DNA of 64,000 nucleotides from Kingella negevensis (lineage in GTDB: Bacteria; Pseudomonadota; Gammaproteobacteria; Burkholderiales; Neisseriaceae), in the NCBI RefSeq assembly GCF_030177895.1, contig NZ_CP123448.1:806001-870000 (forward strand). The letters run 5' to 3'. Shown here one piece after another: positions 37,204-55,831 of the stretch. The translations under genes were made by a program, and so were the position numbers. Numbering within the stretch: position 1 is the first letter of the stretch; every line of letters starts with the position of its first letter. The notes beneath the pieces are model-generated. The model made no database searches. It saw only the letters and a list, made by a program, of their open reading frames with translations, and was not told where the DNA came from.

Positions 37204-38085
37204 TTAGCGTTCTATTTCGGGTTCATCATGAGAAAAATGTTGGGATTGTCTCTGATTGATTTCATCTAGCTGATTCTGATACAAATTTGAACGTGTTTGC
37301 AGTTGGGTTTCGGGCTGTAAAACGTGAGCATTTTGTTCAAAAACGGCAGCAACTTGTTTTTGTTCAGGTGTGAGCAGATTTTGTTTAGCTTGGTATTCTT
37401 GTGATAAGGCAATATGATTTGCCATTTCATTCAATTCCAAAGCCATTGTTTCCAAATCTGTGTTGATTAAAAGTGGGTCGCGTTCTGCATCAGTTTCATA
37501 CGCGCTGACTAATTTATCAGGGTCTTGTGAAAAGGATTGTAGGCGTTGCGCTAGATTCTCGTTGAAATTATCGGGAAAGTTTTTAGCAAGATAATGTAAA
37601 TCAAATAAATCTCGTGCTTTTGTGCGTGTATTATCGCCGTCAAAAGCAGCGTGTAATTTATTGTCAATAATCCGTTCTATTGATGAAAAGCGAATGCCAT
37701 CTTTAACCGTAACCTGTTCTTCGGGAACAGGTGTACGGTAAGAAATTTCCATTTTCAGCGCATCTTGTAAACCAATTTTAGGTACGGAATACTGGATTAC
37801 ATAACGGCTAACTGTTTCAGTATCTTTTTTAACATTGATATTATCAATCTTAAAACCGACAGGTGTAGATTCTTTTATTTTGTTCAATAAATTCAATTTC
37901 TTATTGGAATCAAAATCCAAATCTTCTGAAAATCGGTTTAGACCATAGCCCAAATATAAAGCCGTGCCGCCTTTGAGTACCAAAGGAGTATCAGAAAGAT
38001 TTTGCAGAATGGCAACCATTAACTTTTCATGGGCGGCATTCCGCTCTTCTTGTGAAATCAGTTGATTGGATTTTTCTGTTTCCAT
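37204..38085 (-). CDS. AbiEii/AbiGii-type nucleotidyltransferase toxin
   Basis: 293 residues from METEKSNQ. Nucleotidyltransferase motif VLKGGTALYLGYGLNRFSEDLDFD (G-G-T..S-x-D-x-D), then ALKMEISYR and a KARDLFDLHYLAK segment, match the AbiEii toxin family that modifies tRNA or NTP targets and gives abortive phage resistance. The C-terminal 85 residues are Gln-rich and end SHDEPEIER, a tail very like that of the relaxase (SHDNEMER). The partner gene overlaps its start by 28 bases. Confidence 0.85.
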   Translation of the reverse strand: METEKSNQLISQEERNAAHEKLMVAILQNLSDTPLVLKGGTALYLGYGLNRFSEDLDFDSNKKLNLLNKIKESTPVGFKIDNINVKKDTETVSRYVIQYSVPKIGLQDALKMEISYRTPVPEEQVTVKDGIRFSSIERIIDNKLHAAFDGDNTRTKARDLFDLHYLAKNFPDNFNENLAQRLQSFSQDPDKLVSAYETDAERDPLLINTDLETMALELNEMANHIALSQEYQAKQNLLTPEQKQVAAVFEQNAHVLQPETQLQTRSNLYQNQLDEINQRQSQHFSHDEPEIER

Positions 38086-38522
38086 GTGGCTAATCTTTCT
38101 TTTTGTTGATGATTTAAATAAGGTTCGGCAGCCTGAATCAGCGCGTACACGGCTCGCTTGTCTTCGGGTGCTGGAAACCAATCATCTAAAATTACGCTAT
38201 TGATTGCGCCTTTTTGCAAAACAACGGTGTAAAGCAAATCAAAACAGGCGCGTGGGTGGTCGGCAATGAAAACTGGGCTATTTTCAGGAAAAATACCCAT
38301 GCTATTCAATCGTTTTGTACCGTCAATAACACCTTTTGCGCCTAATAGTTGATTGGTGTTGTATGGTTGATTATCGCCATAAACAAAAACACGTTCAGGT
38401 AGCGCACTGGCGAATGTTGCGGCTGAATGCCAATCACCTGTACCTTGTGGACTGCGAATATTGAGCGCGACCATATCACTGATGTAACGCTGTTTGCTGG
38501 TTGGGGGGATATGTAAAGGCAT
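38058..38522 (-). CDS. Putative antitoxin partner of the AbiEii-type gene
   Basis: 154 residues. It lies upstream of and overlaps the toxin gene, the position of AbiEi. It lacks the N-terminal winged helix I would expect of classic AbiEi; the middle (LLGAKGVIDGTKRLNSMGIF.. VFIADHPRACFDLLYTVVLQKG) resembles the C-terminal, toxin-neutralising half of such proteins. Function is inferred from position. Confidence 0.55.
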   Translation of the reverse strand: MPLHIPPTSKQRYISDMVALNIRSPQGTGDWHSAATFASALPERVFVYGDNQPYNTNQLLGAKGVIDGTKRLNSMGIFPENSPVFIADHPRACFDLLYTVVLQKGAINSVILDDWFPAPEDKRAVYALIQAAEPYLNHQQKERLATWKQKNPIN

Positions 38523-38561
38523 GATTATTCCTTTTTCAACAGTTTATTAAATTGTACCAAA

Positions 38562-38609
38562 AACGCCTATGACTACCTGAATTTTTTCAGGCAGCCATGG
38601 GCGTTTTTT
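38562..38609 (-). terminator. Terminator orphaned by TnpB copy 2
   Basis: ACGCCcATGgCTgCCTGAAAAAATTCAGGtAGtCATaGGCGTTTTTT on the minus strand. With the TnpB element removed it would lie about 25 bases after the stop of the lipoprotein gene at 40042-40494. Confidence 0.75.
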
Positions 38610-38636
38610 CATTTTGATGCGTTTATCTGAATGCGC

Positions 38637-40045
38637 CGTAAAACTTCGCCGTTCACGGCGGAGATATCAGGCGCGGACTGCGAAGCAGCCCAATCAATGT
38701 TAAAATTTAGCCAATTTTTTAAAACTGAAACCTAAAAATGTTGATACTCAAAGCGTTCAAATTTGAACTTATACCCAACGGAGAACAAATCCGCAAACTG
38801 AAACAATTTTGCGGCTGTTCGCGTTTCGTATTCAATCGGGCTTTGGCGTATCAAAATGAACAATATCAGTTAGATAAATCATTCAAATTTAGCTATTCAA
38901 AACTAACCGCATTGTTGCCTGAATGGAAACGTGAGTTAGTTTGGCTCAAAGACTGCCACAGTCAGGTTTTGCAACAAAGTCTAAAAGACTTGGAAAGTGC
39001 ATTCAAAAACTTTTTTGCCAAACGTTCGGACTTTCCAAAATTTAAACGCAAGGGAGAAAAAGACAGTTTCAGATTTCCGCAAGGTTGCAAATTGGAACAA
39101 GGAAATAACCGCATCTATTTACCCAAAATGGGTTGGGTACGCTATCGCAATAGCCGAGCTATTTCAGGCAGCCTGAAAAACGTAACCGTCAGCCAAAAAT
39201 GCGGTAAGTGGTATGTTTCTATTCAAACAGAATTTGAGACGGAAACGCCTACGCCAAACGGTGGAGAAGTCGGTATTGATATGGGTATCGTGCGCTTCGC
39301 GACTTTGTCCAACGGCGAATATTTTGAGCCGATTAACGCGTTTAAGAACCTAAAAGGCAAATTAGCGAAACTACAAAAACGTTTCAAAAACAAGACCAAA
39401 TTTTCTAAAAATTGGCAAAAGTTAAAAGCCAAAATTGCCAAATTGCACCATAAAATCAGCAATATCCGTAAAAACTACTTGCATCAAATCAGCAGCCAAA
39501 TCAGCCAAAACCACGCGATTGTGTACGTTGAAGATTTGCAAGTAGCTAATATGTCTAAGTCAGCAAAAGGCGATGCTGAACAGCATGGCAAAAATGTGAA
39601 ACAGAAATCAGGCTTAAATCGGGCGATTTTAGACCAGTCTTGGGCGGAATTTAGGCGACAATTGGCGTATAAATTGGCTTGGAATGGTGGTTTTGTGTTT
39701 GCTGTTCCACCACAAAATACCAGCCGATGTTGCCCGAATTGCGGACATACGACAAAAGACAACCGCCAAACGCAGGCGAATTTTGAATGCGTAGAGTGTG
39801 GCTATCAAAACAATGCCGATGTAGTCGGTGCAATCAATATATTAAAACGTGGGCAAGCCATTCAGGCTGCCTGAAACGAAGTTCAGCGAAGCTAAAAACA
39901 AAAATCAGGGCAGGACGTGTCCGTAGCGCGTGTGAAGTGAACAATGCAGTCAGGTTGTCAGCAGCACGAACCCACCGAAGCGAGTGAGCAAAACATTGCT
40001 AACCGCCGTAGGAATTCCCTTCGTTCACGGAGGGAAGGACGTCAA
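38637..40045 (+). mobile_element. TnpB-only IS200/IS605-type element, copy 2
   Basis: Same boundaries as copy 1 (TTTAT on the left at 38632-38636, GGACGTCAA on the right). It is inserted at the 3' end of the lipoprotein gene. Confidence 0.8.
38738..39874 (+). CDS. tnpB: TnpB RNA-guided nuclease, copy 2
   Basis: 378 residues with the same catalytic Asp181, Glu265, Asp361 and zinc-finger cysteines as copy 1. The differences (for instance GWVRYRNSR, NGGFVFAVP) avoid the active site, and many codon differences are silent, which suggests both copies have been under selection since duplication. Start and ribosome-binding region are identical to copy 1. Confidence 0.95.
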   Translation: MLILKAFKFELIPNGEQIRKLKQFCGCSRFVFNRALAYQNEQYQLDKSFKFSYSKLTALLPEWKRELVWLKDCHSQVLQQSLKDLESAFKNFFAKRSDFPKFKRKGEKDSFRFPQGCKLEQGNNRIYLPKMGWVRYRNSRAISGSLKNVTVSQKCGKWYVSIQTEFETETPTPNGGEVGIDMGIVRFATLSNGEYFEPINAFKNLKGKLAKLQKRFKNKTKFSKNWQKLKAKIAKLHHKISNIRKNYLHQISSQISQNHAIVYVEDLQVANMSKSAKGDAEQHGKNVKQKSGLNRAILDQSWAEFRRQLAYKLAWNGGFVFAVPPQNTSRCCPNCGHTTKDNRQTQANFECVECGYQNNADVVGAINILKRGQAIQAA

Positions 40046-40065
40046 TTTTTACTACATTGACTGAT
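39875..40065 (+). ncRNA. Predicted TnpB guide RNA (reRNA), copy 2
   Basis: Same scaffold as copy 1, with final hairpin TCCCTTCG-ttca-CGGAGGGA (40016-40035) and GGACGTCAA. Predicted guide TTTTTACTACATTGACTGAT is the 3' end of the neighbouring lipoprotein gene, so the RNA would target the uninserted allele. Confidence 0.65.
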
Positions 40066-40494
40066 GTATTTTTCGCTAATTGCTTTGATATTTGCGCTTG
40101 CTTGTTTAAATTCATTACTCAATGCGTTCAGTGGTAATTTTCCTTGTGCAGTTTGCAATTCTGCAATCAACTGTTTACAAGATTCATCTTCCACTTTAAA
40201 AAAACGGTTGCTACCGCTTGAATACAAATTAGCTGACAGCGTTTTTCTATCGTCAGACAGCGTAAATGGAATTTCTCCCAATCCTGTGTTCAATACCAAT
40301 TCCCCATTCTTTTCAGAAAAAGTGTAGTTTTGTGTTTCTTGTGAAAATAGGTAATTGCCACCGTCTTTTTTGATTTCTACAAATTGCAAAAATTCAGCAT
40401 CATCACGTTGCCAAACACCGACATAATCATCTGTGTTTTTACCGCCACACGCTGCCAACATCAAAACAAGAACCGATAAAGTGATGCGTTTCAT
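40042..40494 (-). CDS. Small lipoprotein, possible entry-exclusion factor
   Basis: 150 residues. A lipoprotein signal MKRITLSVLVLMLAACGGK (lipobox LAAC, Cys16) is followed by a beta-rich domain (YVGVWQRDDAEFLQFVEI..) and a helical end. Size, anchoring and position near the relaxase gene fit entry-exclusion lipoproteins of conjugative elements, but there is no sequence proof. The TnpB element supplies its stop codon (TGA from GTCAA); see findings. Confidence 0.65.
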   Translation of the reverse strand: MKRITLSVLVLMLAACGGKNTDDYVGVWQRDDAEFLQFVEIKKDGGNYLFSQETQNYTFSEKNGELVLNTGLGEIPFTLSDDRKTLSANLYSSGSNRFFKVEDESCKQLIAELQTAQGKLPLNALSNEFKQASANIKAISEKYISQCSKN

Positions 40495-40588
40495 TTTTGA
40501 AACTCCGTATAGGGTTGAAAAAATAGGCTATCAGCATAGGGGTTTTCTTGGTACGTTGTCAAATTGAAACAGGCAGCCTGAAAATATT

Positions 40589-41632
40589 TCAGCGTTCCAT
40601 TTCATTATCGTGTGAGCGGTCGGGCGATTTTTCAGGCTGCCTGATTTGTATCTGAACCTTGTCAAATTCCTGTTGCGCTTGGGTGGTAAATCCTTTTTCA
40701 GACACTTCTTGGGCAAATTTGCTCATGGCTTTGGCTTCGGTTTTGTAGCCATTCATGTACAGTTCACGCGCAATCATTTTGTATTCTGCAACAATCTTTT
40801 GGCGCGTTTTGTCCGCTTGATTCAAAAATGGGTGTTCAGGGCGTTTCCCTGACAAAATAGCTTGTGAAATGGCTAGTTTCTGCTGCAACTCTGCTTTGCT
40901 GCTTTGTCCACGTTCACGCATGGCGCGGATTGTGCTGTTTTCAGGCTTTTGGGTTTTACCACGATGTACGCGCTTGGTGGCGGCGCAATCAACGCCATTT
41001 TCACGCAACTTTTCGGCAAAACGGACACGCCACTCAAACAAATCATTTTTGCGTGGATTGAGTCGCTGACCGCGTTCATCTCGCATCAGTACGCATAGAT
41101 GAACGTGTGGGTGTTCGGGTTCGTCAGGGTCATGGCTGTTGTGGTGCAAGCCTAGAAAATATTGGTGTCCTTGAAATTGCTCTGCGGCAAAATCACGCGC
41201 TGCCTGTAATAGGGCATCGGGTGGCGTTTCTTTGGGCATGGACAAGACAATATTCAGGGCTTCTTTGTGTCGTGTCTCATCGGCGATACCGCAATGGCTT
41301 TGCCAGTCGTTCAAAAATTCTTTTACCGCTCGTTTACCATGAAAAATTTCGCCGTCTTGGTTTTCCAGTGCAATTTCTCCATTGCGTGAAACATAATCCG
41401 CATGGTTGCGTATCCCTTTCATGCCTTTGGAATTTTTGCTGTGGCGTTTGGGAATTTTTACCATGACTTCGGGCTTTTTTTGTGCGGCGGCACGTAGATT
41501 GGTTAAACCTGTACCTGTTTTGAGTGGTTTGGACGAGTGGCGACTACCAAAATTCAGGCTGCCTGATTTGGTGTGAACGCTGCGTGTGTAGCCAAGAAAC
41601 CAGTTATCAATTCTTCTATCTATCTGTTTCAT
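40589..41632 (-). CDS. MOBP-type relaxase
   Basis: 347 residues from ATG 41632, one base after the mobC stop. It nicks oriT and stays covalently bound to the transferred strand. The His-rich metal site is PEHPHVHLCVLM (H-x-H-x), preceded by FLGLHHNSHD; N-terminal MKGIRNHADYVSR may hold the nucleophile Tyr. The C-terminal 120 residues are helical and end RSHDNEMER. It is translationally coupled to mobC upstream. Confidence 0.88.
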   Translation of the reverse strand: MKQIDRRIDNWFLGYTRSVHTKSGSLNFGSRHSSKPLKTGTGLTNLRAAAQKKPEVMVKIPKRHSKNSKGMKGIRNHADYVSRNGEIALENQDGEIFHGKRAVKEFLNDWQSHCGIADETRHKEALNIVLSMPKETPPDALLQAARDFAAEQFQGHQYFLGLHHNSHDPDEPEHPHVHLCVLMRDERGQRLNPRKNDLFEWRVRFAEKLRENGVDCAATKRVHRGKTQKPENSTIRAMRERGQSSKAELQQKLAISQAILSGKRPEHPFLNQADKTRQKIVAEYKMIARELYMNGYKTEAKAMSKFAQEVSEKGFTTQAQQEFDKVQIQIRQPEKSPDRSHDNEMER

Positions 41633-41633
41633 T

Positions 41634-42176
41634 TTAAATATTTTCAATAGGACGATATTTGAACGGTTTATTTTGCTTGCGTAAAACTTTACCGACTGTT
41701 TCAGCGTGTTGCTTTAAAAATGCTGATAATTCAGTTAATTGCTGACTTGTCAAAGAATTAGGTGTAATGCTATTGAGTTGTCGCGCAATTTGATTGATGT
41801 TGCGCCCCAAACGCAAAAGTTGGTAATTAGACTGATATAGAGCCTGTACTTCGTCATTACTCAATACAGGATTTTGCGTAATGTACTCAGCGATAATATC
41901 GCGTACTACATCGTTTAAACTACTGTATTGCAGTTGGGCTTTTTGGTTTAGGTAATGTTGCTGCTGTGGTGGCAGGCGTAAAGTTAAGCGTTGATTTTGC
42001 TTGTTTTCTTGATAATTTTCAGTAGGAATATTTTCAGGCTGCCTGATTTGTTTCTCTGCCAGTTTTCGTAACATTAAAGATGCGCTGGCTTTACCATAGC
42101 GTTCTAATGCCATTAGTTGAAGCTGATTGATGACATCATGACTTAAACCAAAAACACGGATTTCTTGTTGTTTCAT
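41634..42176 (-). CDS. mobC: MobC-family relaxosome accessory protein
   Basis: 180 residues; of two adjacent ATGs the second (42176) is better spaced from AAAGGA. N-terminal part is ribbon-helix-helix-like (EIRVFGLSHDVINQLQLMALERYG; RLTLRLPPQQQHYLNQKAQ). The C-terminal motif YQLLRLGRNINQIARQLN is the MobC signature. MobC-type proteins melt or mark oriT for the relaxase. Confidence 0.85.
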   Translation of the reverse strand: MKQQEIRVFGLSHDVINQLQLMALERYGKASASLMLRKLAEKQIRQPENIPTENYQENKQNQRLTLRLPPQQQHYLNQKAQLQYSSLNDVVRDIIAEYITQNPVLSNDEVQALYQSNYQLLRLGRNINQIARQLNSITPNSLTSQQLTELSAFLKQHAETVGKVLRKQNKPFKYRPIENI

Positions 42177-42193
42177 CATTATTCCTTTTATCA

Positions 42194-42230
42194 AAATAAA
42201 ACCCTGTTTAGCGCAATGCTAAGCAGGGCT
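42194..42230 (-). terminator. Intrinsic terminator between primase and mobC
   Basis: On the minus strand, CCCTGCTTAGC-loop-GCTAAACAGGG then TTTTATTTT, followed by GATAAAAGGAA before mobC. It should limit readthrough from the primase gene into mobC and the relaxase. Confidence 0.75.
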
Positions 42231-42245
42231 TTTTGTTGAAAAAAA

Positions 42246-45200
42246 TCAGCGTTCCATTTCAAAATCTTGGCTGTTGGACTGTTGCGGTTCATGTGCCTGA
42301 TGATGAGTGGGGGCGCGGTTTTGCATTGGTTGTGGCAAATTCAATTCTGTGCCGTTCATGGCATTGGTCGTGTATTCATAGTAATTCCTTAACGCATGAT
42401 TACGCGCATCGCCCTGAACATCGCGCAGCACGTCCATTGTGTTGCGCTCGTAGGCTTTTAGCCGCGCTTGGTTGGGTTCGCTTAACTGTTGCGCTTTTTG
42501 GTCGTAGGCGGCTTTGGCGTTTGCCACTTCGGGCGACAGGGCGGCGGTTGTCATTTCTTGGCTACTTCGTAGCACTTCGGGCTGAATGGTTTTGTTACCC
42601 AAACTCTCTATTTTTGGCGCGGCTTCGGTGTCGGCAATCGGAGATGAATTGATTTGGCGTTCATCGGGCATCGCGCTTTGTGTTTTGAGTTTATCAGCAG
42701 CAGAAAGCGCGGCAACATCGGGCTTTTCAGGCTGCTTGCTCGGGTCAAGCTCGGGTTTATGGGTGCTTTGAATACCATTCAAGGAACGGTCTTCACGCAA
42801 TTTTTCTACCATTGCTAAATCCGCAGGAGTGGGTTTGTAGCCTGTGGTTTTGATGCCCTGACTTTCAGCAGCAACGTACATCATGGATTTAAATTCAGGG
42901 CTGCCTGAAATTTTGATGCTATCCCAACCTTTGGCTTTGGCGACTTCCAACATATCCTGAATGGTTTGCTGGTCGGATTTGGCGGTTTTGAGCGCGTTAC
43001 CTTTGTCTTCAAACAAAACAGTGGTGTGATTGTCGGCAGACAAATATTGCCCATTCTCCGCAACGATGTAGCGCGATTGCAGATGTTTGGGTGGTTTCTC
43101 ATACGTTAAATCCAAAATCGGCTGTGGTTGTTCCAATGTTTCGGGGCGTGATAATTCAGGCTCTTCCACATCGGGTTGTGGGGCTGGCTGCACTTTCTCG
43201 GCTGTGGGTGGAGTGGGTTGAACTGGTTCTGTGGCTGGTTCAGTTTGTGGCTCTGGTTGTAATTCGGGCTGTTTTTCAGGCAGCCTGATTTCGCGCTGGA
43301 AACCACCGTATTCAATGCCGTTGAACATTTCAGGTTGCTGTTCTGTTTGAATTTCAGGAGTAGTTTCTTGCTGCTCTGAAACGGGAACAGCCACATCTTT
43401 TTCTGATGTGGCTGTGGGTTGCGCCAATTCACTTTCAGGCTGCCTACGTTGTGGCGGCTCGGGAATGGTGGTTTCGGGGGCTGGCTGTACAGATTGATTG
43501 CGTTGCTGCAACGCTATTTCCACATCTTGCGGACGGATATGTTCGCCTTGTGCGTAACGGTCGGCATATTGGTTAAACACATCAGCCGCCAACTGCGGCG
43601 ATGTTTGCTGTGTGTCCACGCTGTACACAATATCCCGACCACCGTCCACATCGTTTTCGCCCAACGTCAAATATTGCTCATTGGCGTATGCTACCAAAGT
43701 GCGTTCATCGTCCACATTTTTGTAGGCGCGGTCTTCTCCGCCTTGTGTCCAGCCGTGTTGCTGCGATAATTCCGAAATCATCTGTTTGGCGTATTCCGAA
43801 ACGATTTTTTCAGGCTGCTCTTCCTGCTCTGAAACGGAAACAGCCACATCTTTTTCTGATGTGGCTGTGGGTGGTTCAGTAGATAATTGTTCAAAATATT
43901 CAGGTGGATAATAGGGTGGTAACTCGTTATCATCAGATGAATATTCAGGCATATAATCGTATTCAGGTGGTGCATTTTCAGGCTGCATTGCTTCTGCTTG
44001 CATTTTCAAATCTTGCTCTTTAATCCATTCTGCTGGATTTTGTAAAAAGTCATTGGCTTGTTGAAGTGCATCATCAAGATGATTGGTGTAAACATAGTGG
44101 ACAATTTCATCATTTTCATGAAAAGACATCGTAAAATCATGGGCAGCTTCATAAGTAGCCATAGAGCCATGATTTTTAAATTGACCGTCAATTTCTACAT
44201 GATAGGTTTCATTGACCCATTTATCCGCCTGAAAAACGCCCAATTCTCCACTACTGCTTTCAATGCGCGTAGTAAAACCGTATTGCTCGGCTTGCTGATT
44301 AAAATGAGCCAATCTCTCATTGGTTAAAGGTGTCCGCATTTCCCAACTATCTGCATTATGACGAACTTCATCATCATGTTCTGCCCATTGTGCATAGGGA
44401 TTGTCAGCAGAGTAGGTGGTTTGCTCGGGCTGTTGGTCATTTTCAGGCAAAGGGTCGTAGCCATTTTGGACACGCCAGTAATTGTTTTTCAGCAACTCTT
44501 CGCGTGGTACATCGGGTTTATCGTGTTCTTGCATGATGTCTGCTCCATGTTGTTCAATTTCAGATTTAATTTCACTTTCAGGCTGCCTGTTAAGTTCAAT
44601 ATCCGTTTCTGTTTCAATGATATAAGGTTCAGGCTCAATGCCAAATGTCTCGCGCACCGCTTCAATACCAGCTAATTTGTGCAAGTCGTTAAAATCAGTC
44701 GGTACGTTTTCATTGCCATGACTATCAAATTTGCCATGTTCTGCTTGATATTCATCAATCTGTTTAGCAGAAAATGTCGGCATGGCAATTTGAGCGCGTT
44801 CGCCCCAAATTTGCGCGGCAGCTTGTGCTTTCACTAAACCTGTTTCTTTCGGGTCGTTGTCGGCGGCAAAATAAACAGGCACGTTTTCAGGCAGCACGTT
44901 TACCAATTTTTCCGATACCGCTTTCAAATTGCCAGCATCAAACGCCACAATCACAGGTTTACCAGTTGCCTGATGAACGCTTGCGGCGGTCGCATAACCC
45001 TCCGCCAAAATCACGCCGTTTTGATGCTGCCTGAAATCGCCGATGACCGTGTACGCGCCTTGCTTTTGTCCGCCGCTCAAAAAACTTTTGTTGCCGTCTT
45101 CGTCAATGGTTTGCACGTTTACCAGTTTTTTGTCTGAATACAAAGGGATAATCAACTGCTTTTTGCCGTTGTATTCATTTTGACGAATGGCATTCATCGC

Positions 45201-45656
45201 AGCTTCACTCAATCCCAAGCCTTTATTTTTTGCGTAGGCATGATTGGGGTCAGCAGGGCTGGCGTTTTTCCAAATGCCATAAGCGGTTTTTGCAGCTTTG
45301 GCGTGGTCTTTGGCGATGCGTTCGGCTTCGGCACGTTGTTTTTCTTGCGCGGCTTGGGCGCGTTTGGCTAACTCTTCCGCGCTTGGTGGCGTGTAGGGCT
45401 TGTCGGGACGGTAGCCGTTTTCACGCGCATGATAAAACAGCGTTCCGATATGAATATGTCCTTGTTTCAAGGATTTCCAAACGGCTTTTGCATCATTGGG
45501 CTTGTAGGTGTCCGACTGGCGCGACCATTCGTCCCACAATTCAAAACCATCTTCGCCCAATTCATCTTTCACGGCAGCACCCATTCTGACCCAAAAATCA
45601 CGGTCATTCGCATCAAGATGAGTTAAGGCTTTGCGGATTTCTTCGTAATCACTCAT
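42246..45656 (-). CDS. Conjugative DNA primase with Toprim and LPD7-like domains
   Basis: 1136 residues. A PriCT-type N-terminus (ALTHLDANDRDFWVRMGAAVK) is followed by a zinc-less primase region and a Toprim domain at about residues 200-320 (VILAEGYATAASVHQATG; YFAADNDPKETG). A long low-complexity Pro/Glu/Gln region follows. Near residue 900 lies an LPD7-like domain (KGWDSIKISGSPEFKSMMYVAAESQGIKTTGYKP). The end reads NSQDFEMER. TraC-type primases are sent into recipients by IncP T4SS to prime the complementary strand. A duplicated TATSEKDVAV segment occurs in the linker. Confidence 0.88.
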   Translation of the reverse strand: MSDYEEIRKALTHLDANDRDFWVRMGAAVKDELGEDGFELWDEWSRQSDTYKPNDAKAVWKSLKQGHIHIGTLFYHARENGYRPDKPYTPPSAEELAKRAQAAQEKQRAEAERIAKDHAKAAKTAYGIWKNASPADPNHAYAKNKGLGLSEAAMNAIRQNEYNGKKQLIIPLYSDKKLVNVQTIDEDGNKSFLSGGQKQGAYTVIGDFRQHQNGVILAEGYATAASVHQATGKPVIVAFDAGNLKAVSEKLVNVLPENVPVYFAADNDPKETGLVKAQAAAQIWGERAQIAMPTFSAKQIDEYQAEHGKFDSHGNENVPTDFNDLHKLAGIEAVRETFGIEPEPYIIETETDIELNRQPESEIKSEIEQHGADIMQEHDKPDVPREELLKNNYWRVQNGYDPLPENDQQPEQTTYSADNPYAQWAEHDDEVRHNADSWEMRTPLTNERLAHFNQQAEQYGFTTRIESSSGELGVFQADKWVNETYHVEIDGQFKNHGSMATYEAAHDFTMSFHENDEIVHYVYTNHLDDALQQANDFLQNPAEWIKEQDLKMQAEAMQPENAPPEYDYMPEYSSDDNELPPYYPPEYFEQLSTEPPTATSEKDVAVSVSEQEEQPEKIVSEYAKQMISELSQQHGWTQGGEDRAYKNVDDERTLVAYANEQYLTLGENDVDGGRDIVYSVDTQQTSPQLAADVFNQYADRYAQGEHIRPQDVEIALQQRNQSVQPAPETTIPEPPQRRQPESELAQPTATSEKDVAVPVSEQQETTPEIQTEQQPEMFNGIEYGGFQREIRLPEKQPELQPEPQTEPATEPVQPTPPTAEKVQPAPQPDVEEPELSRPETLEQPQPILDLTYEKPPKHLQSRYIVAENGQYLSADNHTTVLFEDKGNALKTAKSDQQTIQDMLEVAKAKGWDSIKISGSPEFKSMMYVAAESQGIKTTGYKPTPADLAMVEKLREDRSLNGIQSTHKPELDPSKQPEKPDVAALSAADKLKTQSAMPDERQINSSPIADTEAAPKIESLGNKTIQPEVLRSSQEMTTAALSPEVANAKAAYDQKAQQLSEPNQARLKAYERNTMDVLRDVQGDARNHALRNYYEYTTNAMNGTELNLPQPMQNRAPTHHQAHEPQQSNSQDFEMER

Positions 45657-45727: not shown

Positions 45728-47734
45728 TCAAACGAATAATTTTGCCAAGACTTGCTCGCTGTCTTTGCCCCATTGTTTTGCCATACCTGCCACAATTTGC
45801 TTGATGTATTCAGGCGGACTGTCGGGCGTAACCAACGCACGAGCCATTGTGTAAAACAATTCATCGTTGTTGGCACAGGTTTTAAAATCGGTTTCAGGCA
45901 GCTTTTCATCGGGAACAGGCTCGGTTTTGGCGGTTTGAGCGGTGGCAGATTTCGGCTGACTGCGGTGGGTTTTGATTTCAAGATTGGGGACATCGGGGCG
46001 CGGTAAATTGGCGCGAACTTTGAACACATCATCTTGCCAATACACGATTTTTTGCGCGTAAATGGCACGACTGCTGCCCAAATTGATGATGCAATCCGAG
46101 TTCGGCATCATCTTGATTTCATCGGGGTTCATCACGGCACGTTGTTGGTCGCTGATGCTGGTGCTACGGCTGCCGCCTTTGCCTTGCGAACGCGATGTAG
46201 AACGCGCTTTAAATGTTTCATAACCGATTGATTTACTGTACTCTTCGGCATCTTTCTGAACGCGTGGCGTGTAGAAAATCCGACAAGTAAAGTTGGTAAA
46301 AAACGTTTCCATGTTTTCACGTCCGTAAATCGCTTCCACTTGGGACGGAGCTTGAATAATGATGAGTAGCCGCAATTCGTAACCTGCAATGTACGACACG
46401 CCGTGTTGCACGGCTGGAATCACGCCGAGCGCGGTAAATTCGTCCATCAACAATAAGCATTGGTATTTGAGCAATGCTTTGTTGTCTTGTGGTAAACCTT
46501 GTTGCACGTTCACGTCAATAATTTGCGAAAACAACAAATTAGTTAAACGGCTGAATGTTTCGGTTTCGGTCGGCACAACGCCAATGAAAATTGTCATGCG
46601 CTTTTTGCGGAGTTCATCAAGACGGAAATCATCGCCCGATGTTGCCGCTTCGCAAACAGGGTCAAGGAAAATGCCGAGCGGTGCGGTCAGCGATGCCAAA
46701 ATATCCGCGCCTGTTTTCGGGCTGCCATTGGCAAAACCGAGCAACAGCGTTTTGCATTGACTGGATAACGGCGTTTTTTCAGGGTCGTTATCGCGTTCGG
46801 CGATTTCAGCCAACAACCATTCATTAAGCGGTTTGCCGTCAGTCGGCGCGGTTAAACGGAACAAATTTGCCAATGTGGTGCGTTGCGTGTAATCGTCTAA
46901 ATCGCGTTCACGTTCGGTTTCAATCATGTACAAACCCAAGCCGACAAATAATTTCCGCGCGCTTTCCACAAAAAATGTACCGCTGCCGTTGTCTTTGGCA
47001 GGTTTGGGCAACAAAATGGCTGCCATATTGGACAAATCTTTGTAGCTGTATCGCGCATCACGGCGAATGTAGGTCATCGGATTCCAGCGATGGCTAACAA
47101 GCGGCAACATCGGATTGCGTTCATGTTCGGGCATACGTCCACCGGGATTGAACAAGAAAACCTGTTGCCCCAATTTTTGCTGCCTGAAACCGCCTGTGAT
47201 GATGAAATTTTCCAATTTCGGGTCGTACACCACCATAGAATCACGATAATGCAAGCAATTTGGAATAACCACGCCCACGCCTTTACCCGAGCGTGTCGGT
47301 GCGGCTAAATACAGAAACTCGTTACCAGCCCAACGCAAATATTTGTTTCTGTATTTGCCGATGAGCAAATCGGGTTTTTCTTTGCTGTAATCGGCTTTGA
47401 GTAAGCCAGCTTGTTGTACTTCAACCGCGTTGGCAAAACGTGAAGAGCCGTGTAATTCGCGTTTGGGTTTGGCGAACACCGCCGCCAACATAATCAGCGT
47501 AGGTAAAATGCTGATTAGCAGCGCAATCATCACGCTGATTTTATATGGCATCAGCAACTTGGCAGACAGTTTGTCCAAATGTTGCGCGTATTCGTATAGC
47601 AAAAATACGGACGGTTTGCTGTTCAATTTTTGCCAGCGCACAAATATCATACTGCCAACATAACCACCGCCAGCCATTGCGAGCGGTAGCGTAAACAAAA
47701 TAAATAAAACAATGGGTAGTGCTTTATTTTTCAT
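45728..47734 (-). CDS. virD4: Type IV coupling protein, VirD4/TraG family
   Basis: 668 residues from MKNKALP (frame extends to 47818). It links relaxosome to the secretion channel. Two N-terminal membrane helices (LPIVLFILFTLPLAMAGGGYVG; ISVMIALLISILPTLIMLAAVF), Walker A APTRSGKGVGVVIPN and Walker B QCLLLMDEFTALG are present. The C-terminal ~60 residues are variable and Pro/Thr/Glu-rich. It lies between topB and the primase on the same strand. Confidence 0.95.
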   Translation of the reverse strand: MKNKALPIVLFILFTLPLAMAGGGYVGSMIFVRWQKLNSKPSVFLLYEYAQHLDKLSAKLLMPYKISVMIALLISILPTLIMLAAVFAKPKRELHGSSRFANAVEVQQAGLLKADYSKEKPDLLIGKYRNKYLRWAGNEFLYLAAPTRSGKGVGVVIPNCLHYRDSMVVYDPKLENFIITGGFRQQKLGQQVFLFNPGGRMPEHERNPMLPLVSHRWNPMTYIRRDARYSYKDLSNMAAILLPKPAKDNGSGTFFVESARKLFVGLGLYMIETERERDLDDYTQRTTLANLFRLTAPTDGKPLNEWLLAEIAERDNDPEKTPLSSQCKTLLLGFANGSPKTGADILASLTAPLGIFLDPVCEAATSGDDFRLDELRKKRMTIFIGVVPTETETFSRLTNLLFSQIIDVNVQQGLPQDNKALLKYQCLLLMDEFTALGVIPAVQHGVSYIAGYELRLLIIIQAPSQVEAIYGRENMETFFTNFTCRIFYTPRVQKDAEEYSKSIGYETFKARSTSRSQGKGGSRSTSISDQQRAVMNPDEIKMMPNSDCIINLGSSRAIYAQKIVYWQDDVFKVRANLPRPDVPNLEIKTHRSQPKSATAQTAKTEPVPDEKLPETDFKTCANNDELFYTMARALVTPDSPPEYIKQIVAGMAKQWGKDSEQVLAKLFV

Positions 47735-47792
47735 GATGAAATTCCCAAAAAATTCAGGCAGCCTGAATTTATCCAAGCTGCCTGAAAACTCA

Positions 47793-50171
47793 TTATTTTT
47801 TACGCGGCACAAAACCAATCTTCTTATTCACTTTGTCCACGCACAATGCCGCATCAAATGTGCTGCCGTCTTTTCGGTTCAAGCCTTTAATCAAACCGCT
47901 TTCGCCTTTTTCAATCAACGATTTAAGCTGATTTTCGGTCAAGCGTTTGCCAAATTGCGTTTTCCATAATTTGAAACCACATTCACATTCGTACAAACCA
48001 CCTTTGTCGTGCAGGCTGCCTGAACAACACGGACAGGTTTCCGTTTTGCGTTCGGGAAACGCCATGCCGATTTTCAGGCTGCCTGTATCATCGCGTTCCA
48101 GCTTTAAGACAGCAGCGTATTTTGTGCCTTTTTCTTTGGACACAAAATCTTGCAGCAAATCGGTTTTGCCGTGTTCAATCAGTTGGCGCAATTCATCTGC
48201 CGACATGGCACGACCGCGCTGTTCTTTGTAGAGTTTGAAACCGCATTCACAATGCCAACTGAATTTTTGGCTTTGCAGGCTGCCTGAACCGCAATTCGGA
48301 CACGCACACAAGATTTCTGCTTGATGTGCGTTCGGACGATGCGGCAACACCGTTGCTACAAATTTTTTCACGAACCCATGAATTTCCGCACGAAAATCAT
48401 CGGCAGCAAATTGACCGTGTTCTATTTGATGCAATTTGTCTTCCCATTCAGCAGTTAAAATTGGGTCGGCGGTTTCAGGGAAAAACTGGCGGACGTGGGC
48501 AATCGCATCAAGCGCACGTTGGCTCGGGATTAACTGGTTCTTTTCCAGCAACAAATAGGCTGATTCATGTTCGGGCGGCGTTTTCAATTTTTTGATGATG
48601 GGCGCGCGTGTAGCAGATGTGCCGATGCCTTTCACGTCTTTCATCACGTCTGCCAAATGCTTGTCGTCCAAATCGCGCCCTGCGGTTTTCATGGCTTGGA
48701 TTAAACGGCTTTCGGTCATGAGCGGCGGTGCTTTGGTGGTTAATTTTTTGGCGGACACGCTGTCCAGTTGCGCGGTTTCATCGGGCGACAACGGCGGCAA
48801 TTTATCCGACTGCTGCTTGTCTTCGTCATCATCAATGCCACCGTACACGTTCAGCCAGCCTTGTTTTTGCAACACGCGCCCAGTTGTCCGCAGTTTCAGG
48901 CTGCCTGAAAACGTGATACGCGTGGTTACGGCGTATTCGGCAGCAGGATAAAGTGCGGCGAGCGTTCGCAACGCCACCAAATGAAACACGGTATATTCAT
49001 CAGCCGACAAAGTTTCGTGCAACACATTGGGCGGACAATCCGACAAAGCGCGTTCGCCGTCTGCCGTCTGAATGAAACCAGTTGGCACAATCGCATAGTG
49101 TGAGCCGATGCGCTTGTCGTCAAAAACACGCGGATTGTGTTTAATCAAATCATGGGCTTGCATATCATTTACGATGTTACTGTATTCCGCCAACGCGCCT
49201 AATCCTGCAATCGTGGTGCTTAACGTGGGCAAGTAATCGTCAGGCAGCGCGTTAAAATCGGAACGCGGATAAGTCAAAACTTTGTGCTTTTCGTACAAAC
49301 TTTGCATGATAGACAAGGTTTTATCGGCAGCAAAACCAAGTTTTTTATTGGCGATTTTTTGCAATTCATTGGCATCAAACAAATACGGCGCGTGAGCGTA
49401 TTCCGTTTCGGCAGCATCGTTCACAGCAAATCTGTTTTGATTGTGGATGTGTTCACAGGCAGCCTGCGCGGTTTCGTCATCGGCAAAACGGGAGATTTTG
49501 TCGTTTTTGTCCAATAATTTTGCGGTATAACTGCCTGATTGAATAGCAAATTGCGCCGATACTTCCCAATAGTTTTCAGGTCTGAAATTTTTGTTGGCGA
49601 GATAAGCATCAACCACCATCGCCAGCGTAGGGGTCATCACGCGCCCAAACTGATTGCTCAATGCGCGAGAGCCGTTCATGCCGAGCAGCCAATCGGCTTC
49701 GGCGCGGCATTGTTCGGCAGCAGCGAGATTATCGTAATCTGTGCCGTTTTTCAGATGGTCAAACGCTTGGCGTAAACCTTGTTGCGTAGTGGATTGAATC
49801 CACATACGTTTTACAGGTTTCAGGCAGCCTGAATGTTGGTAAACCAACCGAAAAATATGTTCACCTGCACGGTCGGCATCGCAAGCGTTTACGAGCGTGG
49901 ACACGTCCGCACGATGAATTAAACCGCGCAAAAACTGATAATGTTGCGCGGTTTGTTCTTTGATTTTCAGGGAAAAAGTTTGCGGAATAACAGGCAATGA
50001 TGCGTTCTTGTCGCGCCATTCGGGAACATCAAATTCAATCAAATGCCCGATGCAGTTACTGACGATGAATTGCTCGTTTTCGTAGCAACCTTTGGTTTTG
50101 GGGACATTCAGCACGGCGGCGATGGCTTTTGCCATATCGGGTTTTTCAGCGATGATTAGGGTTTTGGACAT
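47793..50171 (-). CDS. topB: DNA topoisomerase III
   Basis: 792 residues. Toprim opening TLIIAEKPDMAKAIAAVL, active-site Tyr in LTYPRSDFNALPDDYLP, and an ESRLIQAMKTAGRDLDDKHL, GIGTSATRA segment are present. Two C-terminal zinc-ribbon-like repeats with CxxC pairs (CACPNCGS.. and CPCCSGS.., each ending ECGFKLYK/ECGFKLWK) follow. TopB is common on large conjugative elements, where it resolves intermediates of transfer or integration. It is the gene after ssb with a 27-base gap. Confidence 0.95.
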   Translation of the reverse strand: MSKTLIIAEKPDMAKAIAAVLNVPKTKGCYENEQFIVSNCIGHLIEFDVPEWRDKNASLPVIPQTFSLKIKEQTAQHYQFLRGLIHRADVSTLVNACDADRAGEHIFRLVYQHSGCLKPVKRMWIQSTTQQGLRQAFDHLKNGTDYDNLAAAEQCRAEADWLLGMNGSRALSNQFGRVMTPTLAMVVDAYLANKNFRPENYWEVSAQFAIQSGSYTAKLLDKNDKISRFADDETAQAACEHIHNQNRFAVNDAAETEYAHAPYLFDANELQKIANKKLGFAADKTLSIMQSLYEKHKVLTYPRSDFNALPDDYLPTLSTTIAGLGALAEYSNIVNDMQAHDLIKHNPRVFDDKRIGSHYAIVPTGFIQTADGERALSDCPPNVLHETLSADEYTVFHLVALRTLAALYPAAEYAVTTRITFSGSLKLRTTGRVLQKQGWLNVYGGIDDDEDKQQSDKLPPLSPDETAQLDSVSAKKLTTKAPPLMTESRLIQAMKTAGRDLDDKHLADVMKDVKGIGTSATRAPIIKKLKTPPEHESAYLLLEKNQLIPSQRALDAIAHVRQFFPETADPILTAEWEDKLHQIEHGQFAADDFRAEIHGFVKKFVATVLPHRPNAHQAEILCACPNCGSGSLQSQKFSWHCECGFKLYKEQRGRAMSADELRQLIEHGKTDLLQDFVSKEKGTKYAAVLKLERDDTGSLKIGMAFPERKTETCPCCSGSLHDKGGLYECECGFKLWKTQFGKRLTENQLKSLIEKGESGLIKGLNRKDGSTFDAALCVDKVNKKIGFVPRKK

Positions 50172-51027: not shown

Positions 51028-52122
51028 TTACGACCGTCCACTTAACGCCCGATACTTTGCCACAGGGTCAAAATACAGTTCAGTCATGCGCGTTCGGTCA
51101 AAAAAGCACACAATATCAATGGTGGAACGGACAGTATTCAAAATGAAATCATAGTCCATTGTGCGCCCTGTGGCGGATTCTTTCGCCAGTTGTGCGATGC
51201 GGTAAAACACCGATTGGGCATCGTTGGCATGGACGGAAGTTAAACCGCCAGCGTGTCCAGTATTCAGCGCAGACAAATAATCCCACGCTTCATCGCCGCG
51301 TAGCTCGGTCAGAAAAATGCGGTCGGGTTTCAGGCGCATACAGGCGGCGATAATTTGTTTGGCTGTGATGTGTTCTTTGTAGAACAAGTGAACATGGTTC
51401 GGGTGTTTAGGCAAATCCAGCTCGTGCGTGTCTTCAATCGTGATGATGCGCGTGGTCGGGTCAATCATATCTGCCAATGCTTTTGTGAACGTGGTTTTGC
51501 CCGAACCTGTACCGCCGACCATGCAAATATTCAGCTTGTGGGCAATCGCTAATTCAAAAAAGGCGTTCAAATCACGGTTAGCTTTGTGGTTTAACATTTC
51601 GTATTGCCAATTTGCCAACGGTATATCGTGCGGTACGTTCATTTTGTCGGCAATATCATGGAAATGTTTACCGTCAATTTCGGTTTTCAGGCTGCCTGAA
51701 ACGCCGTATTGTGCGCTGTCGCGGAACTGGCTCAATCGCCCTGTATTGATGTAATCATCAACCGAAAAACGTGTTTTAGACGGTTTGCGGAATGCGTACA
51801 CGATGGTTTTGTCTTCGCAAGACGGCGGTATCATGATGTGTCCGCGTTCGCCATTGGGCAGCGTTACCGAATGAATGGGGTTGGCGGCGGAAATATGCTT
51901 GCTGTTAAACACGCATAAGGTGTTGGCTAAATGTTCCAATGCTTTGAAATCTAAACGGTTGTCGTCAAAACGTTGCCAGCCGTTTGCGCTTTCAATAAAC
52001 ACTTCATTCGGGCGATTGATGATGACTTCGGTAACGCCGTCTTGGTTCAAATAATCGCTGATGCCCAAGCGGTCTAGGGCGTTTCGTGCGCTGGTATCGG
52101 CGCGGATGGTTTGGTTTTCCAT
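51028..52122 (-). CDS. virB11: VirB11/TrbB secretion ATPase
   Basis: 364 residues from MENQTIRAD. N-terminal domain (LNQDGVTEVIINRPNEVFIE), then Walker A MVGGTGSGKTTFTKAL, Asp box RIITIEDTHEL, Walker B FLTELRGDEAWDYL and His box GGLTSVHAND. The hexameric traffic ATPase at the base of the T4SS. Separated from virB10 by the inserted toxin pair. Confidence 0.95.
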   Translation of the reverse strand: MENQTIRADTSARNALDRLGISDYLNQDGVTEVIINRPNEVFIESANGWQRFDDNRLDFKALEHLANTLCVFNSKHISAANPIHSVTLPNGERGHIMIPPSCEDKTIVYAFRKPSKTRFSVDDYINTGRLSQFRDSAQYGVSGSLKTEIDGKHFHDIADKMNVPHDIPLANWQYEMLNHKANRDLNAFFELAIAHKLNICMVGGTGSGKTTFTKALADMIDPTTRIITIEDTHELDLPKHPNHVHLFYKEHITAKQIIAACMRLKPDRIFLTELRGDEAWDYLSALNTGHAGGLTSVHANDAQSVFYRIAQLAKESATGRTMDYDFILNTVRSTIDIVCFFDRTRMTELYFDPVAKYRALSGRS

Positions 52123-52185
52123 TTTTATTCCTATCAAAAATTCAGGCAGCCTGAATAGTGTTTTCAGGCTGCCTGTAATCTATCA

Positions 52186-52455
52186 TTAACCAAAAAGTTC
52201 TGAATGTGAACCTAATCGTGCAAGATGAACTTCATCATCATCTGATGTATAAAGCAACAGTAGGTCAGGTTTAACATGACATTCACGAAAGTTGTTTAAA
52301 TTTCCTTTTAATTCATGGTCTTTAAATTTTTCTGGCATAGGTTGATTGTTGATGAGAGACCAAGAAACGGTTGTCCATTCAGAAGTAAGCAATAAATCCA
52401 ATCTATTTTTAACATCTCGTTTGAATTGTTTGCTTGGTACAAGTTTTCTAGTCAT
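52186..52455 (-). CDS. RelE/YafQ-type mRNA interferase toxin
   Basis: 89 residues. Family motifs SKQFKRDVKNR, DHELKGNLNNFRECHVKPDLLLLYTSDD and LARLGSHSELF match YafQ; His residues in DHEL, CHVKP and SHSEL fit the catalytic set. It overlaps the antitoxin by 4 bases. Cleaves mRNA on the ribosome; here it likely stabilises the ICE. Confidence 0.92.
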   Translation of the reverse strand: MTRKLVPSKQFKRDVKNRLDLLLTSEWTTVSWSLINNQPMPEKFKDHELKGNLNNFRECHVKPDLLLLYTSDDDEVHLARLGSHSELFG

Positions 52456-52745
52456 TCATCAAACTCCGCGATGTCATTCATCATTTCTTCCATGCTGCTG
52501 TATCGCTTCAAATGCCGTGTTTCCTTGTCTTCAAGAATTTCTTGAATAGCGGCAAGCGTTGTTTCATTAGGAATACGGCTTGTACCATGATGATTGAAAG
52601 ACAATGGCACAGTTTGCGTATCTGCTACTTGTTTTAAAAATAGCTTAATGGCTTGTGCAGGGGCTAATCCGTAGCTTTCTAAAACAGAAAAGGCTTTGTC
52701 GCGTAAATCTTGCTCAATGCGAATATTATAATTAGTTGTTGCCAT
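52452..52745 (-). CDS. RelB/DinJ-type antitoxin
   Basis: 97 residues from MATTNYNIRI. N-terminal ribbon-helix-helix (YNIRIEQDLRDKAFSVLESYGLAPAQAIKLFLKQV) and an acidic C-terminal toxin-binding tail (YSSMEEMMNDIAEFDE). It overlaps the toxin start and presumably represses the pair. Confidence 0.92.
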   Translation of the reverse strand: MATTNYNIRIEQDLRDKAFSVLESYGLAPAQAIKLFLKQVADTQTVPLSFNHHGTSRIPNETTLAAIQEILEDKETRHLKRYSSMEEMMNDIAEFDE

Positions 52746-52820
52746 TGTTTTACTCCTGTACATTAAATGTAATGCTTATTGTATTTCAGGCTGCCTGAAA
52801 ACACAAGCTGCCTGAAATCA

Positions 52821-54161: not shown

Positions 54162-54977
54162 TTAAAATCCTTTCAGTAAACGAACAGATGAATTGTCGTC
54201 TGTGCCAGTTTGATTGAATTGACCGTTGCTGTTAAATCCTCGATTTTCAATACCCAAAACTTGCTTGTTCAAACGCAAAATGAAATGTTGCGCGGTTTCG
54301 TGAACAACAACTGTGTCGCCGTCCATGTGTGTGTTCAGCAGAACTTCGCTGCCATCGTCCAATACTTTGTAAATGGTCGGTAAGTCGCGCCCATTATTGA
54401 AACGGAAGTAGGTAAATCGTCCGTTGTCGTAAATGTGTGTCGGTGCGAGATGTTTGTTGCCAAGTCCCCAATAATTGGTATTGGTGTTAAGCGGTGGCGC
54501 AGATTGTGCTTGCCCGAATACTTCGGCTGACTGAATGCGTTTTTGTGCGGCGGTGCGCCGTTGGGCAAATGCGGTATCAGGGTAATTGAAACGCAGAATG
54601 TATGTTGGCGTCGGTGTGCCGTTGGTGGATTTCAGGTCAAAGGCATAGGTGCGTTTATTGGTGGTAATCAGCAAGTTGGTATCGGGGTGTTCGGCGGTGG
54701 GTTTGAAGAAAATATTGTTGCCGCGAGCGGTCATTTTCCATGCTTCGGCATGACCGATGCCCATTGCGCTGCTTTCGCCGATAATGCGTTCATCGCTTTC
54801 CAACTGAATAACGGTGGCTACGCCGACTTTGGTACGAACCACAAATACATCATCAGGCGTATAAACAGCCGTCTGAATGCGTTTGTCTTTGGGCGAGCCT
54901 TTTGGAATATTGGCTGCCTGAACGGAAAATGGCAGCACAATGGCTGCCATAGCGAGATAAATCAATTTATTTTTCAT
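54162..54977 (-). CDS. virB9: VirB9/TrbG channel protein
   Basis: 271 residues with a signal peptide (MKNKLIYLAMAAIVLPFSVQA). N- and C-terminal domains (IPKGSPKDKRIQTAVYTPDDVFVVRTKVGVATVIQL; NYWGLGNKHLAPTHIYDNGRFTYFRFNNGRDLPTIY) are as in VirB9. Outer-membrane part of the core complex. Confidence 0.95.
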   Translation of the reverse strand: MKNKLIYLAMAAIVLPFSVQAANIPKGSPKDKRIQTAVYTPDDVFVVRTKVGVATVIQLESDERIIGESSAMGIGHAEAWKMTARGNNIFFKPTAEHPDTNLLITTNKRTYAFDLKSTNGTPTPTYILRFNYPDTAFAQRRTAAQKRIQSAEVFGQAQSAPPLNTNTNYWGLGNKHLAPTHIYDNGRFTYFRFNNGRDLPTIYKVLDDGSEVLLNTHMDGDTVVVHETAQHFILRLNKQVLGIENRGFNSNGQFNQTGTDDNSSVRLLKGF

Positions 54978-54986
54978 GAGATTATC

Positions 54987-55700: not shown

Positions 55701-55831
55701 GGATTAGCCTTTTCTGTGGTCATGGTAGGTTGTGGGTTAATTGGAAAAGGTTTGCCGTAAGGCTTGGGTGGATTGTGCGAGCAAGCAGCGAGTAGAGCGG
55801 TTGTCGTGAGCATGATGAGCAATTTTTTCAT
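55697..55831 (-). CDS. virB7: VirB7 lipoprotein
   Basis: 44 residues, shorter than usual ORF cut-offs. A signal MKKLLIMLTTTALLAACSHN with lipobox LLAAC (Cys17) is followed by a Pro-rich tail. Its TGA overlaps the virB8 ATG by 4 bases. VirB7 stabilises VirB9 in the outer membrane. Position and lipobox make the assignment firm. Confidence 0.85.
   Translation of the reverse strand: MKKLLIMLTTTALLAACSHNPPKPYGKPFPINPQPTMTTEKANP

Follow-up and report, generated by a model that had tools for sequence, protein, structure and literature searches.

A C-terminal tail common to the relaxase, primase and AbiEii toxin of a Kingella conjugative element as a probable element-specific signal for type IV secretion

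Why do three otherwise unrelated proteins, encoded close to one another in Kingella negevensis, end in nearly the same residues? The question was raised by a preliminary description of a 64,000-nucleotide stretch of DNA (contig NZ_CP123448.1, positions 806,001 to 870,000; the window), which contains what we take to be a ~38-kb integrative conjugative element of the Neisseriaceae with a VirB/VirD4-type type IV secretion system (T4SS). That description proposed that the tail shared by the relaxase, the primase and an AbiEii-type toxin is the signal recognized by the coupling protein, and that AbiEii would then be exported as an effector or as a protector delivered with the DNA. Comparison of the sequences with those of other elements supports the proposal well and adds two features that the description had missed, namely a helical module ahead of the tail and tails that are matched within each element. 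We therefore consider it probable (roughly 70%) that the tail is an element-specific T4SS signal and that AbiEii is the toxin of a toxin-antitoxin pair turned into an effector delivered by conjugation. The genes and tails in question are listed below, with expectation values (E) of domain matches and AlphaFold confidence scores (predicted local distance difference test, pLDDT).

37204..38085, minus strand: AbiEii-type nucleotidyltransferase (toxin family), 293 residues, with module and tail (PF08843, E 9e-28; PADLOC AbiEii, E 7e-78)
37207..37233, minus strand: terminal tail of AbiEii, ...DEPEIER (block-mean pLDDT 65 and 55, last 13 residues)
40589..41647, minus strand: MOBP-type relaxase (PF03432, E 1e-9; MobP1 NF041450, E 9e-32, below its cut-off)
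40592..40621, minus strand: terminal tail of the relaxase, ...HDNEMER (pLDDT <50, residues 341-350 of the 350-residue model)
42246..45656, minus strand: primase with PriCT_2, Toprim_3 and LPD7 matches (Pfam)
42249..42275, minus strand: terminal tail of the primase, ...QDFEMER (from the sequence)

The three C-termini are found where they had been placed, with AbiEii ending in ...FSHDEPEIER (stop at 37204), the relaxase in ...RSHDNEMER (40589) and the primase in ...NSQDFEMER (42246); the name IncP-type for the primase, a PriCT_2/Toprim/LPD7 protein, was inexact. As had also been claimed, no other protein of the window ends in this way: among 480 open reading frames (ORFs) of at least 40 residues, E[MILV]ER or [DE]R is the end of these three alone, and a tail rule (a C-terminal R and at least two D or E within the last 8 residues) is satisfied by 3 of the 109 ORFs of at least 100 residues. 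The tails of AbiEii and the relaxase are predicted by AlphaFold to be disordered.

The DNA is alike as well, since the 12-mers reported for the plus strand occur exactly at 37207, 40592 and 42249, and a search of the window allowing up to one mismatch returned 5 matches compared with 1.1 expected from shuffles. The ends of the relaxase and primase genes are identical at 21 of 24 bp including the stop codon (E 2e-4 within the 300-bp ends), and the end of the AbiEii gene has 12 of 13 bp in common with either of them (E 0.38). The identity of the relaxase and primase ends would suit an explanation by shared ancestry without present common function, in which a C-terminal piece was spread by fusion or duplication and passively kept. 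However, upstream of the last codons blastn found no match between the relaxase and primase genes better than E 0.1, and the similar tails of an Advenella plasmid (see below) use different codons; because the likeness stops at the last codons and the Advenella codons differ, recent duplication of DNA, a possibility that the preliminary description had itself raised, does not explain the tails. Passive descent is further opposed by the occurrence of the tail in relaxases with identity down to ~48% and by the co-variation of the tails of unrelated proteins within an element, both set out below, and we regard it as very unlikely.

Homology searches found 896 relatives of the relaxase and 1075 of AbiEii, of which 120 each were listed. 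Among those listed, 92 of 120 relaxases, whose identity to the window relaxase extends down to ~48%, satisfy the tail rule, and 105 of 120 end in R; the concern that homologous relaxases might lack the tail is thus not borne out. In AbiEii the rule is satisfied by 6 of the 120 listed homologues, four of which are the close relatives P0121-P0124, and the other ends include LKFK or LKMK plus one residue in many Pasteurellaceae, GLKRR or GLKRE in Rodentibacter and KRRR in many Helicobacter. These counts indicate that the tail characterizes the relaxase family, whereas the end of AbiEii varies with its source.

In the Neisseriaceae, the relaxase is encoded in 31 of 83 genomes at 37 places, which lie in 36 stretches of up to 20 kb (L138-L173; two places in genome G364 fall into one stretch); four and two further stretches were taken from the wider order. 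Within the 36 stretches, the rule is satisfied by 78 of 93 relaxase, primase or module-bearing ORFs (30/38, 25/27 and 23/28, respectively) compared with 9 of 462 other genes, and by none of the proteins MobC (0/31), VirD4 (0/13) and Rep (0/15). The module-bearing ORFs, to which we return below, are toxins, ArdC and proteins without a name. Four of the nine tailed "other genes" encode ArdC-type or module proteins missed by our hidden Markov model (HMM) of toxin ends (L150, L163, L164, L165), and a fifth is an ORF without a name ending in EPEIER (L161). Of the eight relaxase ORFs without the tail, four stop early (L161, L168, L170, L172) and the others end in ISRS, DISR, DPTR and PTER.

Ahead of the tail, AbiEii and the primase carry a C-terminal helical module of ~67 residues.

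37207..37407, minus strand: C-terminal helical module of AbiEii, residues 227-293, common to Zeta and Fic ends (AlphaFold helices 240-255 and 258-284)
42351..42536, minus strand: C-terminal module of the primase, approximately residues 1041-1102 (hhalign 97.3%, E 2.4e-11, to the toxin and ArdC profile)

The last ~67 residues of AbiEii match the end of a Zeta toxin of L153 (48%, E 1e-11) and that of a Fic toxin of L149 (43%; E 6e-5 or 5e-9, depending on the direction of the search), and hence one module is borne by three unrelated toxin heads. The alignment of one AbiEii, five Zeta and one Fic sequence has ten invariant columns. The Zeta toxins are cargo downstream of the relaxase in L138, L139, L140, L141 and L153, as is the Fic toxin in L149; the blastp labels naming AbiEii in L138, L139, L149 and L153 were wrong, because the match came from the shared C-terminus, and Pfam identifies these proteins as Zeta and Fic. 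None of the Pfam matches at E 0.01 of the window AbiEii or of the Zeta and Fic proteins is to the BID family, for which Pfam, we presume, includes a model. An HMM of the seven toxin ends matches ArdC-type proteins and "middle" proteins of many loci (best E ~2e-9), nearly always within ~20 residues of the C-terminus and with a core like GLPxxxQxQARxNFYxSQ; at E 0.01 it matches 38 places in 19 of the 83 Neisseriaceae genomes, of which the weakest are perhaps due to chance. The toxin and ArdC module profiles align in hhalign at 98.6% (E 1e-15). Proteins with ArdcN and MPTase-PolyVal matches are encoded between the primase and MobC in L140, L148, L163 and L164, and proteins in the same position in L138 (two) and L147 (one) have no Pfam match. 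E-values of a combined HMM, which was trained on most of its matches, are used only for the untrained L165 and L183. A homologue search with the Zeta C-terminus gave 10 candidates and found 2 proteins, of which one is the cluster of the query itself.

Other conjugative elements encode a similar set of proteins with a different, often basic, common tail. In Advenella plasmid pWTk445 (NC_017965.1, typed as conjugative, MOBP/MPF_T) the primase ends in ...DLTLER, ArdC in ...LEVER and the relaxase in ...KNIER. In pIPO2T, which we take to be a PromA-type plasmid, the ends are ...DEQSR (relaxase TraR), ...ERNAERTR (TraO) and ...TGIER (a 25-kDa KfrB protein); there is partial similarity in Agrobacterium pAtCFBP6625c and in a Xanthomonas plasmid. 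The Helicobacter-like G556 (Campylobacterales, two adjoining stretches) has ...KGRNR on its relaxase, ...KGRGR on both a Toprim protein and a partial ArdC match, and ...PKRRR on both of its AbiEii proteins. On Campylobacter corcagiensis pCCORG, AbiEii ends in ...SNLRKNK, Fic in ...SNIRKQK, an annotated ImmA/IrrE protein in ...KNRQR and two more proteins in ...TNIKKQR and ...SNVKKQR. In Campylobacter jejuni pAR-0413-1, AbiEii ends in ...REPQRER and a Toprim protein in ...KEPERER. On an IncP-like plasmid of Eikenella exigua (NZ_CP038019.1), two Fic proteins and one Zeta protein (L265, 20001-21029; L267, 15616-18261) have basic ends, and all three match KfrB at the C-terminus (in one case slightly under the Pfam cut-off); TraI ends in ...GKGRNK and a TraC-like protein in ...SGPRR. 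A Haemophilus parainfluenzae plasmid has ...KKFKR on Zeta, ...SKRGKK on TraI and ...SKIKR on a TraC-like protein. KfrB, with basic tails in E. exigua and the acidic GIER in pIPO2T, looks like another delivery module. Because the ends of one toxin family differ between elements (EIER, KRRR or LRKNK in AbiEii; PDIER, KKFKR or GRRLR in Zeta; EPEIDR, NIRKQK or SGRRI in Fic), the tails of AbiEii, Zeta, Fic and KfrB proteins fit the element rather than the family.

In two parts of pCCORG (L193, 4494-9682; L256, 11025-13544) the basic end shared by AbiEii, Fic and other proteins is of the form N(I/L/V)(R/K)K(Q/N)(K/R). A 214-residue annotated relaxase piece of C. jejuni, encoded beside tet(O), has no Pfam match and was not counted as a cognate relaxase.

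To quantify the matching of tails, we computed net charges over the final 12 residues and averaged them separately for toxins and for processing proteins (relaxase, primase or ArdC-type) in each element that encodes both sorts; seven Neisseriaceae elements (L141 included) were averaged as one lineage. Across six lineages, drawn from a list of elements that is not a systematic sample, the charge of the toxin tails followed that of the processing-protein tails (r=0.92, 2 of 720 permutations), and with Acaryochloris added as a seventh r was 0.94 (5 of 5040 permutations). When the six lineages were omitted one at a time, r lay between 0.89 and 0.97 (1 or 2 of 120 permutations); this includes the omission of C. 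corcagiensis (r=0.93, 1 of 120), for which the annotated ImmA/IrrE metallopeptidase is the sole "processing" protein used. The other genes of the stretches have mean charges of -0.1 to 1.5 and correlate with the toxins at -0.57 (six lineages) or 0.36 (seven), and r=0.92 and 0.94 remained after their charge was subtracted; the other genes thus do not explain the co-variation. Rows L182, L183 and L192 were dropped since no relaxase, primase or ArdC was identified in the stretch, as were G605, a near copy of G556 with an interrupted AbiEii, and elements without a toxin.

Since proteases commonly recognize short disordered tails at the C-terminus, the tails might be stability or proteolysis tags that keep these proteins scarce until transfer. 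However, acidic and basic tails occur within the same protein families and track the relaxase and primase, and one would not expect a host protease to vary from element to element; we consider this the least probable of the alternatives. It is also conceivable that module and tail serve to dock the proteins to another partner (relaxosome, single-stranded DNA-binding protein, single-stranded DNA or the antitoxin) and so keep them at the transfer site, with export incidental or absent. The presence of the module on the DNA-processing proteins primase and ArdC as well as on toxins, and the relaxase having the tail alone, would be in keeping with docking, but MobC has no tail (0/31), the tail is common to toxins whose heads are unrelated and whose upstream partners differ, and the chemistry of the tail follows the element, basic-tailed elements included. 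Docking therefore seems unlikely to us.

The partner of the window AbiEii bears on the proposed export of the toxin.

38058..38522, minus strand: AbiEi-like partner, 154 residues, ending in KQKNPIN, without the tail (PADLOC AbiEi PDLC02280, E 8e-66)

This ORF, for which no Pfam family was found at E 0.01, lies directly upstream of AbiEii and overlaps its start, and the pair is downstream of the relaxase, so that the toxin gene of a toxin-antitoxin pair adjoins the relaxase in a conjugative element with a T4SS. The start of AbiEii is more likely the ATG at 38085 than the listed TTG at 38181, 293 residues being the length of close homologues. NPIM-like or other ends that are not tails occur on the AbiEi-like partners in the window and at eight further loci (nine rows, as one locus counts twice). 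Small ORFs, probably antitoxins judging from where they lie and from VbhA/antitoxin names on plasmids related to these, immediately precede five Zeta or Fic genes and likewise end without a tail. This is what export of the toxin without its antitoxin predicts. In the mechanism that we propose, VirD4 would pick proteins for transfer through an acidic ...[DE]x[IM]ER C-terminal tail, which the ~67-residue helical module would present on the primase and AbiEii. AbiEi would hold AbiEii in check in the donor, and AbiEii sent into the recipient without AbiEi would be active until the incoming element makes AbiEi; the recipient might thereby become addicted on arrival of the element, or be shut down briefly in a way that helps the element to become established.

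A broader reading is that there is an element-specific C-terminal address code, in which every recipient-bound protein carries a tail fitting the coupling protein of its element, and in which a toxin head traded between elements takes on the module and tail of its new element. It would span relaxase, primase, ArdC, KfrB-type proteins and AbiEii, Zeta and Fic toxins, with acidic ER tails in one branch and basic tails in others, and we judge its odds to be evenly balanced.

Several observations weigh against the proposed secretion signal and delivered toxin. The tail rule was set after the tails had been seen and the related loci are not independent, for which reasons the Fisher p of 9e-69 for tail enrichment is not a fair probability. 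Cognate relaxase and primase tails are more alike than shuffled ones (p 0.003 for 26 Neisseriaceae elements, 0.001 for 23 dereplicated), but this likeness within the family is modest and phylogeny is not removed from it. The six loci from the wider order, beyond the Neisseriaceae, agree less closely: in L174 the primase ends in MEIER but ArdC in LSLEI and the relaxase in IEQTY. The primase of L171 ends in EISY. The relaxase C-terminus aligns with the toxin and ArdC profile at only 1.2% in hhalign, and the module was not found there, so that the delivery piece common to toxin and relaxase would be the terminal tail and not the helical module. The Pfam-confirmed ArdC proteins of L163 and L164 are not matched by the toxin-end HMM. 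AbiEii proteins bearing the module are known only from the window and the four unplaced homologues P0121-P0124, with L183 a weaker case (module E 2e-6, end KGIDI), and AbiEii is found at E 1e-15 in 2 of the 83 Neisseriaceae genomes. Elsewhere, the Variovorax relaxase ends in KGRGR as opposed to ERTR and GIER on the LPD7 protein and the next protein; the tails of Stenotrophomonas maltophilia are weak and Asticcacaulis has none; and the annotated MobP1 relaxase of C. jejuni pAR-0413-1 ends in ...NNEIERDG. The Pasteurellaceae stretches with AbiE pairs gave no match by blastp with either the relaxase or the VirD4 of the window, other relaxase families not having been sought, and their tails were left without a cognate for comparison. 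Finally, ArdC of R388 is reported to be needed in the recipient, with export not required and not ruled out (PMC7213743).

Homology of the relaxase C-terminus to the module was rejected on the hhalign result despite a similar three-helix layout before the tail in the AlphaFold models, a resemblance that is suggestive only. In the AbiEii model (pLDDT 91.9) the catalytic domain is followed by helices 211-233, 240-255 and 258-284 and a low-confidence tail; in the relaxase model (pLDDT 80.7) the final helices are 273-296, 300-315 and 321-334, with a disordered tail at 341-350.

The closest known parallel is VbhT of Bartonella schoenbuchensis, a Fic and BID protein described as a toxin-antitoxin toxin that is delivered by conjugation via a C-terminal piece shared with the relaxase; relaxases themselves are transferred proteins (PMC5675462). 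As with VbhT and the BID-bearing FicT and PezT proteins (PMC5675462), the toxin of a toxin-antitoxin pair is here encoded beside relaxase genes and has a C-terminal piece that is also on the relaxase, in our case the tail only. Unlike VbhT, the proteins studied here have no BID match, the module is a different one that is also on the primase and ArdC, and AbiEii and Zeta heads are joined to it; the Fic head of L149 on the new module is related to VbhT (NF045983, E 2e-27, below the cut-off). TraC1 and the ArdC of pSa are reported to be transferred, and polyvalent proteins with ArdC, LPD7 and Toprim domains are likewise believed to accompany the DNA into the recipient, although no common C-terminal tail is described in the part of that source considered here (PMC5512222); its main text has "AbiEii" and "fic" 0 times and "zeta" once. 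In the F-type pED208 system several plasmid and host proteins are reported to pass with the DNA, some by C-terminal signals (PMC11288057, PMC8406263); these signals are varied, and the portion of PMC11288057 considered describes no common sequence tail. The AbiE type IV toxin-antitoxin and abortive infection systems have the same AbiEi/AbiEii pair (PMC3985639), to which the window adds the C-terminal module and tail. The window AbiEii is 56% identical over 223 columns (Foldseek) to JHP933 of Helicobacter pylori (PDB 4o8s), likewise an AbiEii-type nucleotidyltransferase, which comes from a plasticity region and of which residues 11-243 were solved; "toxin" occurs 0 times in the main text of that report (PMC4125220). 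The H. pylori tfs3 and tfs4 T4SSs are reported to be located in plasticity zones.

In the literature covered, which is partial, we found no description of a tail common to relaxase, primase, ArdC and toxins and no account of AbiEii as a conjugation effector. In the majority of conjugation systems it is an open matter which proteins are delivered besides the relaxase, prediction having seemed out of reach because of the variety of their signals. If our reading is true, the set of delivered proteins could be predicted by sequence alone, from a C-terminal tail shared and matched within the element; such a tail would also explain the C-terminal extensions on toxin-antitoxin toxins of such elements and provide a second, BID-independent case of conjugation-delivered toxins.

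The element that carries these genes has its integrase, relaxase, coupling protein and T4SS genes between direct repeats, and also encodes a ParA-like protein and a topoisomerase. VirD4 is the presumed receptor of the tail.

24429-24504: tRNA-Asn
24455..24514, plus strand: left end repeat (3' part of tRNA-Asn), a 60-nt direct repeat 95% identical to the right copy
24440..25585, minus strand: tyrosine integrase (PF00589, E 9e-32)
41634..42194, minus strand: MobC/NikA-like accessory protein (matches below Pfam cut-offs), without the tail
45728..47818, minus strand: VirD4-type coupling protein (PF02534, E 7e-91), without the tail
51028..60886, minus strand: T4SS genes VirB11, VirB10/TrbI, VirB9/CagX, VirB8, VirB6/TrbL, VirB5 and VirB4 (Pfam)
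62487..62546, plus strand: right end repeat, 95% identical to the left copy

Among the 120 listed of the 896 relaxase homologues, the nearest named relatives are those of Neisseria blantyrii (88%) and Kingella kingae (85%). Related AbiEii loci (the best 80 of 316 in genome contigs and 9 in viral contigs) are distant. AbiE pairs occur in 10 of 140 Pasteurellaceae genomes (L207, L210, L213, L216 and others), with ends like LKFKF/LKMKF or LKRR/LKRE, and one of these stretches has VirB11-like and topoisomerase-like matches. On Marinobacter plasmids AbiEii follows an annotated helix-turn-helix gene, and the stretch has no annotated relaxase. In L182, a 140-residue protein (5052-5474) encoded beside a VirD4-like gene ends in VEIDL and AbiEii (10001-10795) in DHDLDL, perhaps another local type of tail without R.

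Two near-identical genes, tentatively called TnpB-like from the neighbours of short matches, flank the AbiE pair at 35817-36953 and 38738-39874, and their starts share a 300-nt repeat of 95% identity. Two paralogous small ORFs (32784-33236 and 34992-35378) end similarly, in ...FNWEDKPDPESLK and ...FNWDERPDPETLK, and the DNA surrounding them is repeated. Within the primase gene a 54-nt repeat (96%) is found at 43366-43419 and 43819-43872, between the Toprim and LPD7 matches. The window is dense in the words AGGCAGCCTGAA (47 copies) and AGGCTGCCTGAA (36 copies, both strands counted in each case), which we take to be Neisseriaceae DNA uptake dialects, and one such uptake-signal-like copy lies in frame (RQPE) in the linker of the relaxase ahead of its tail.

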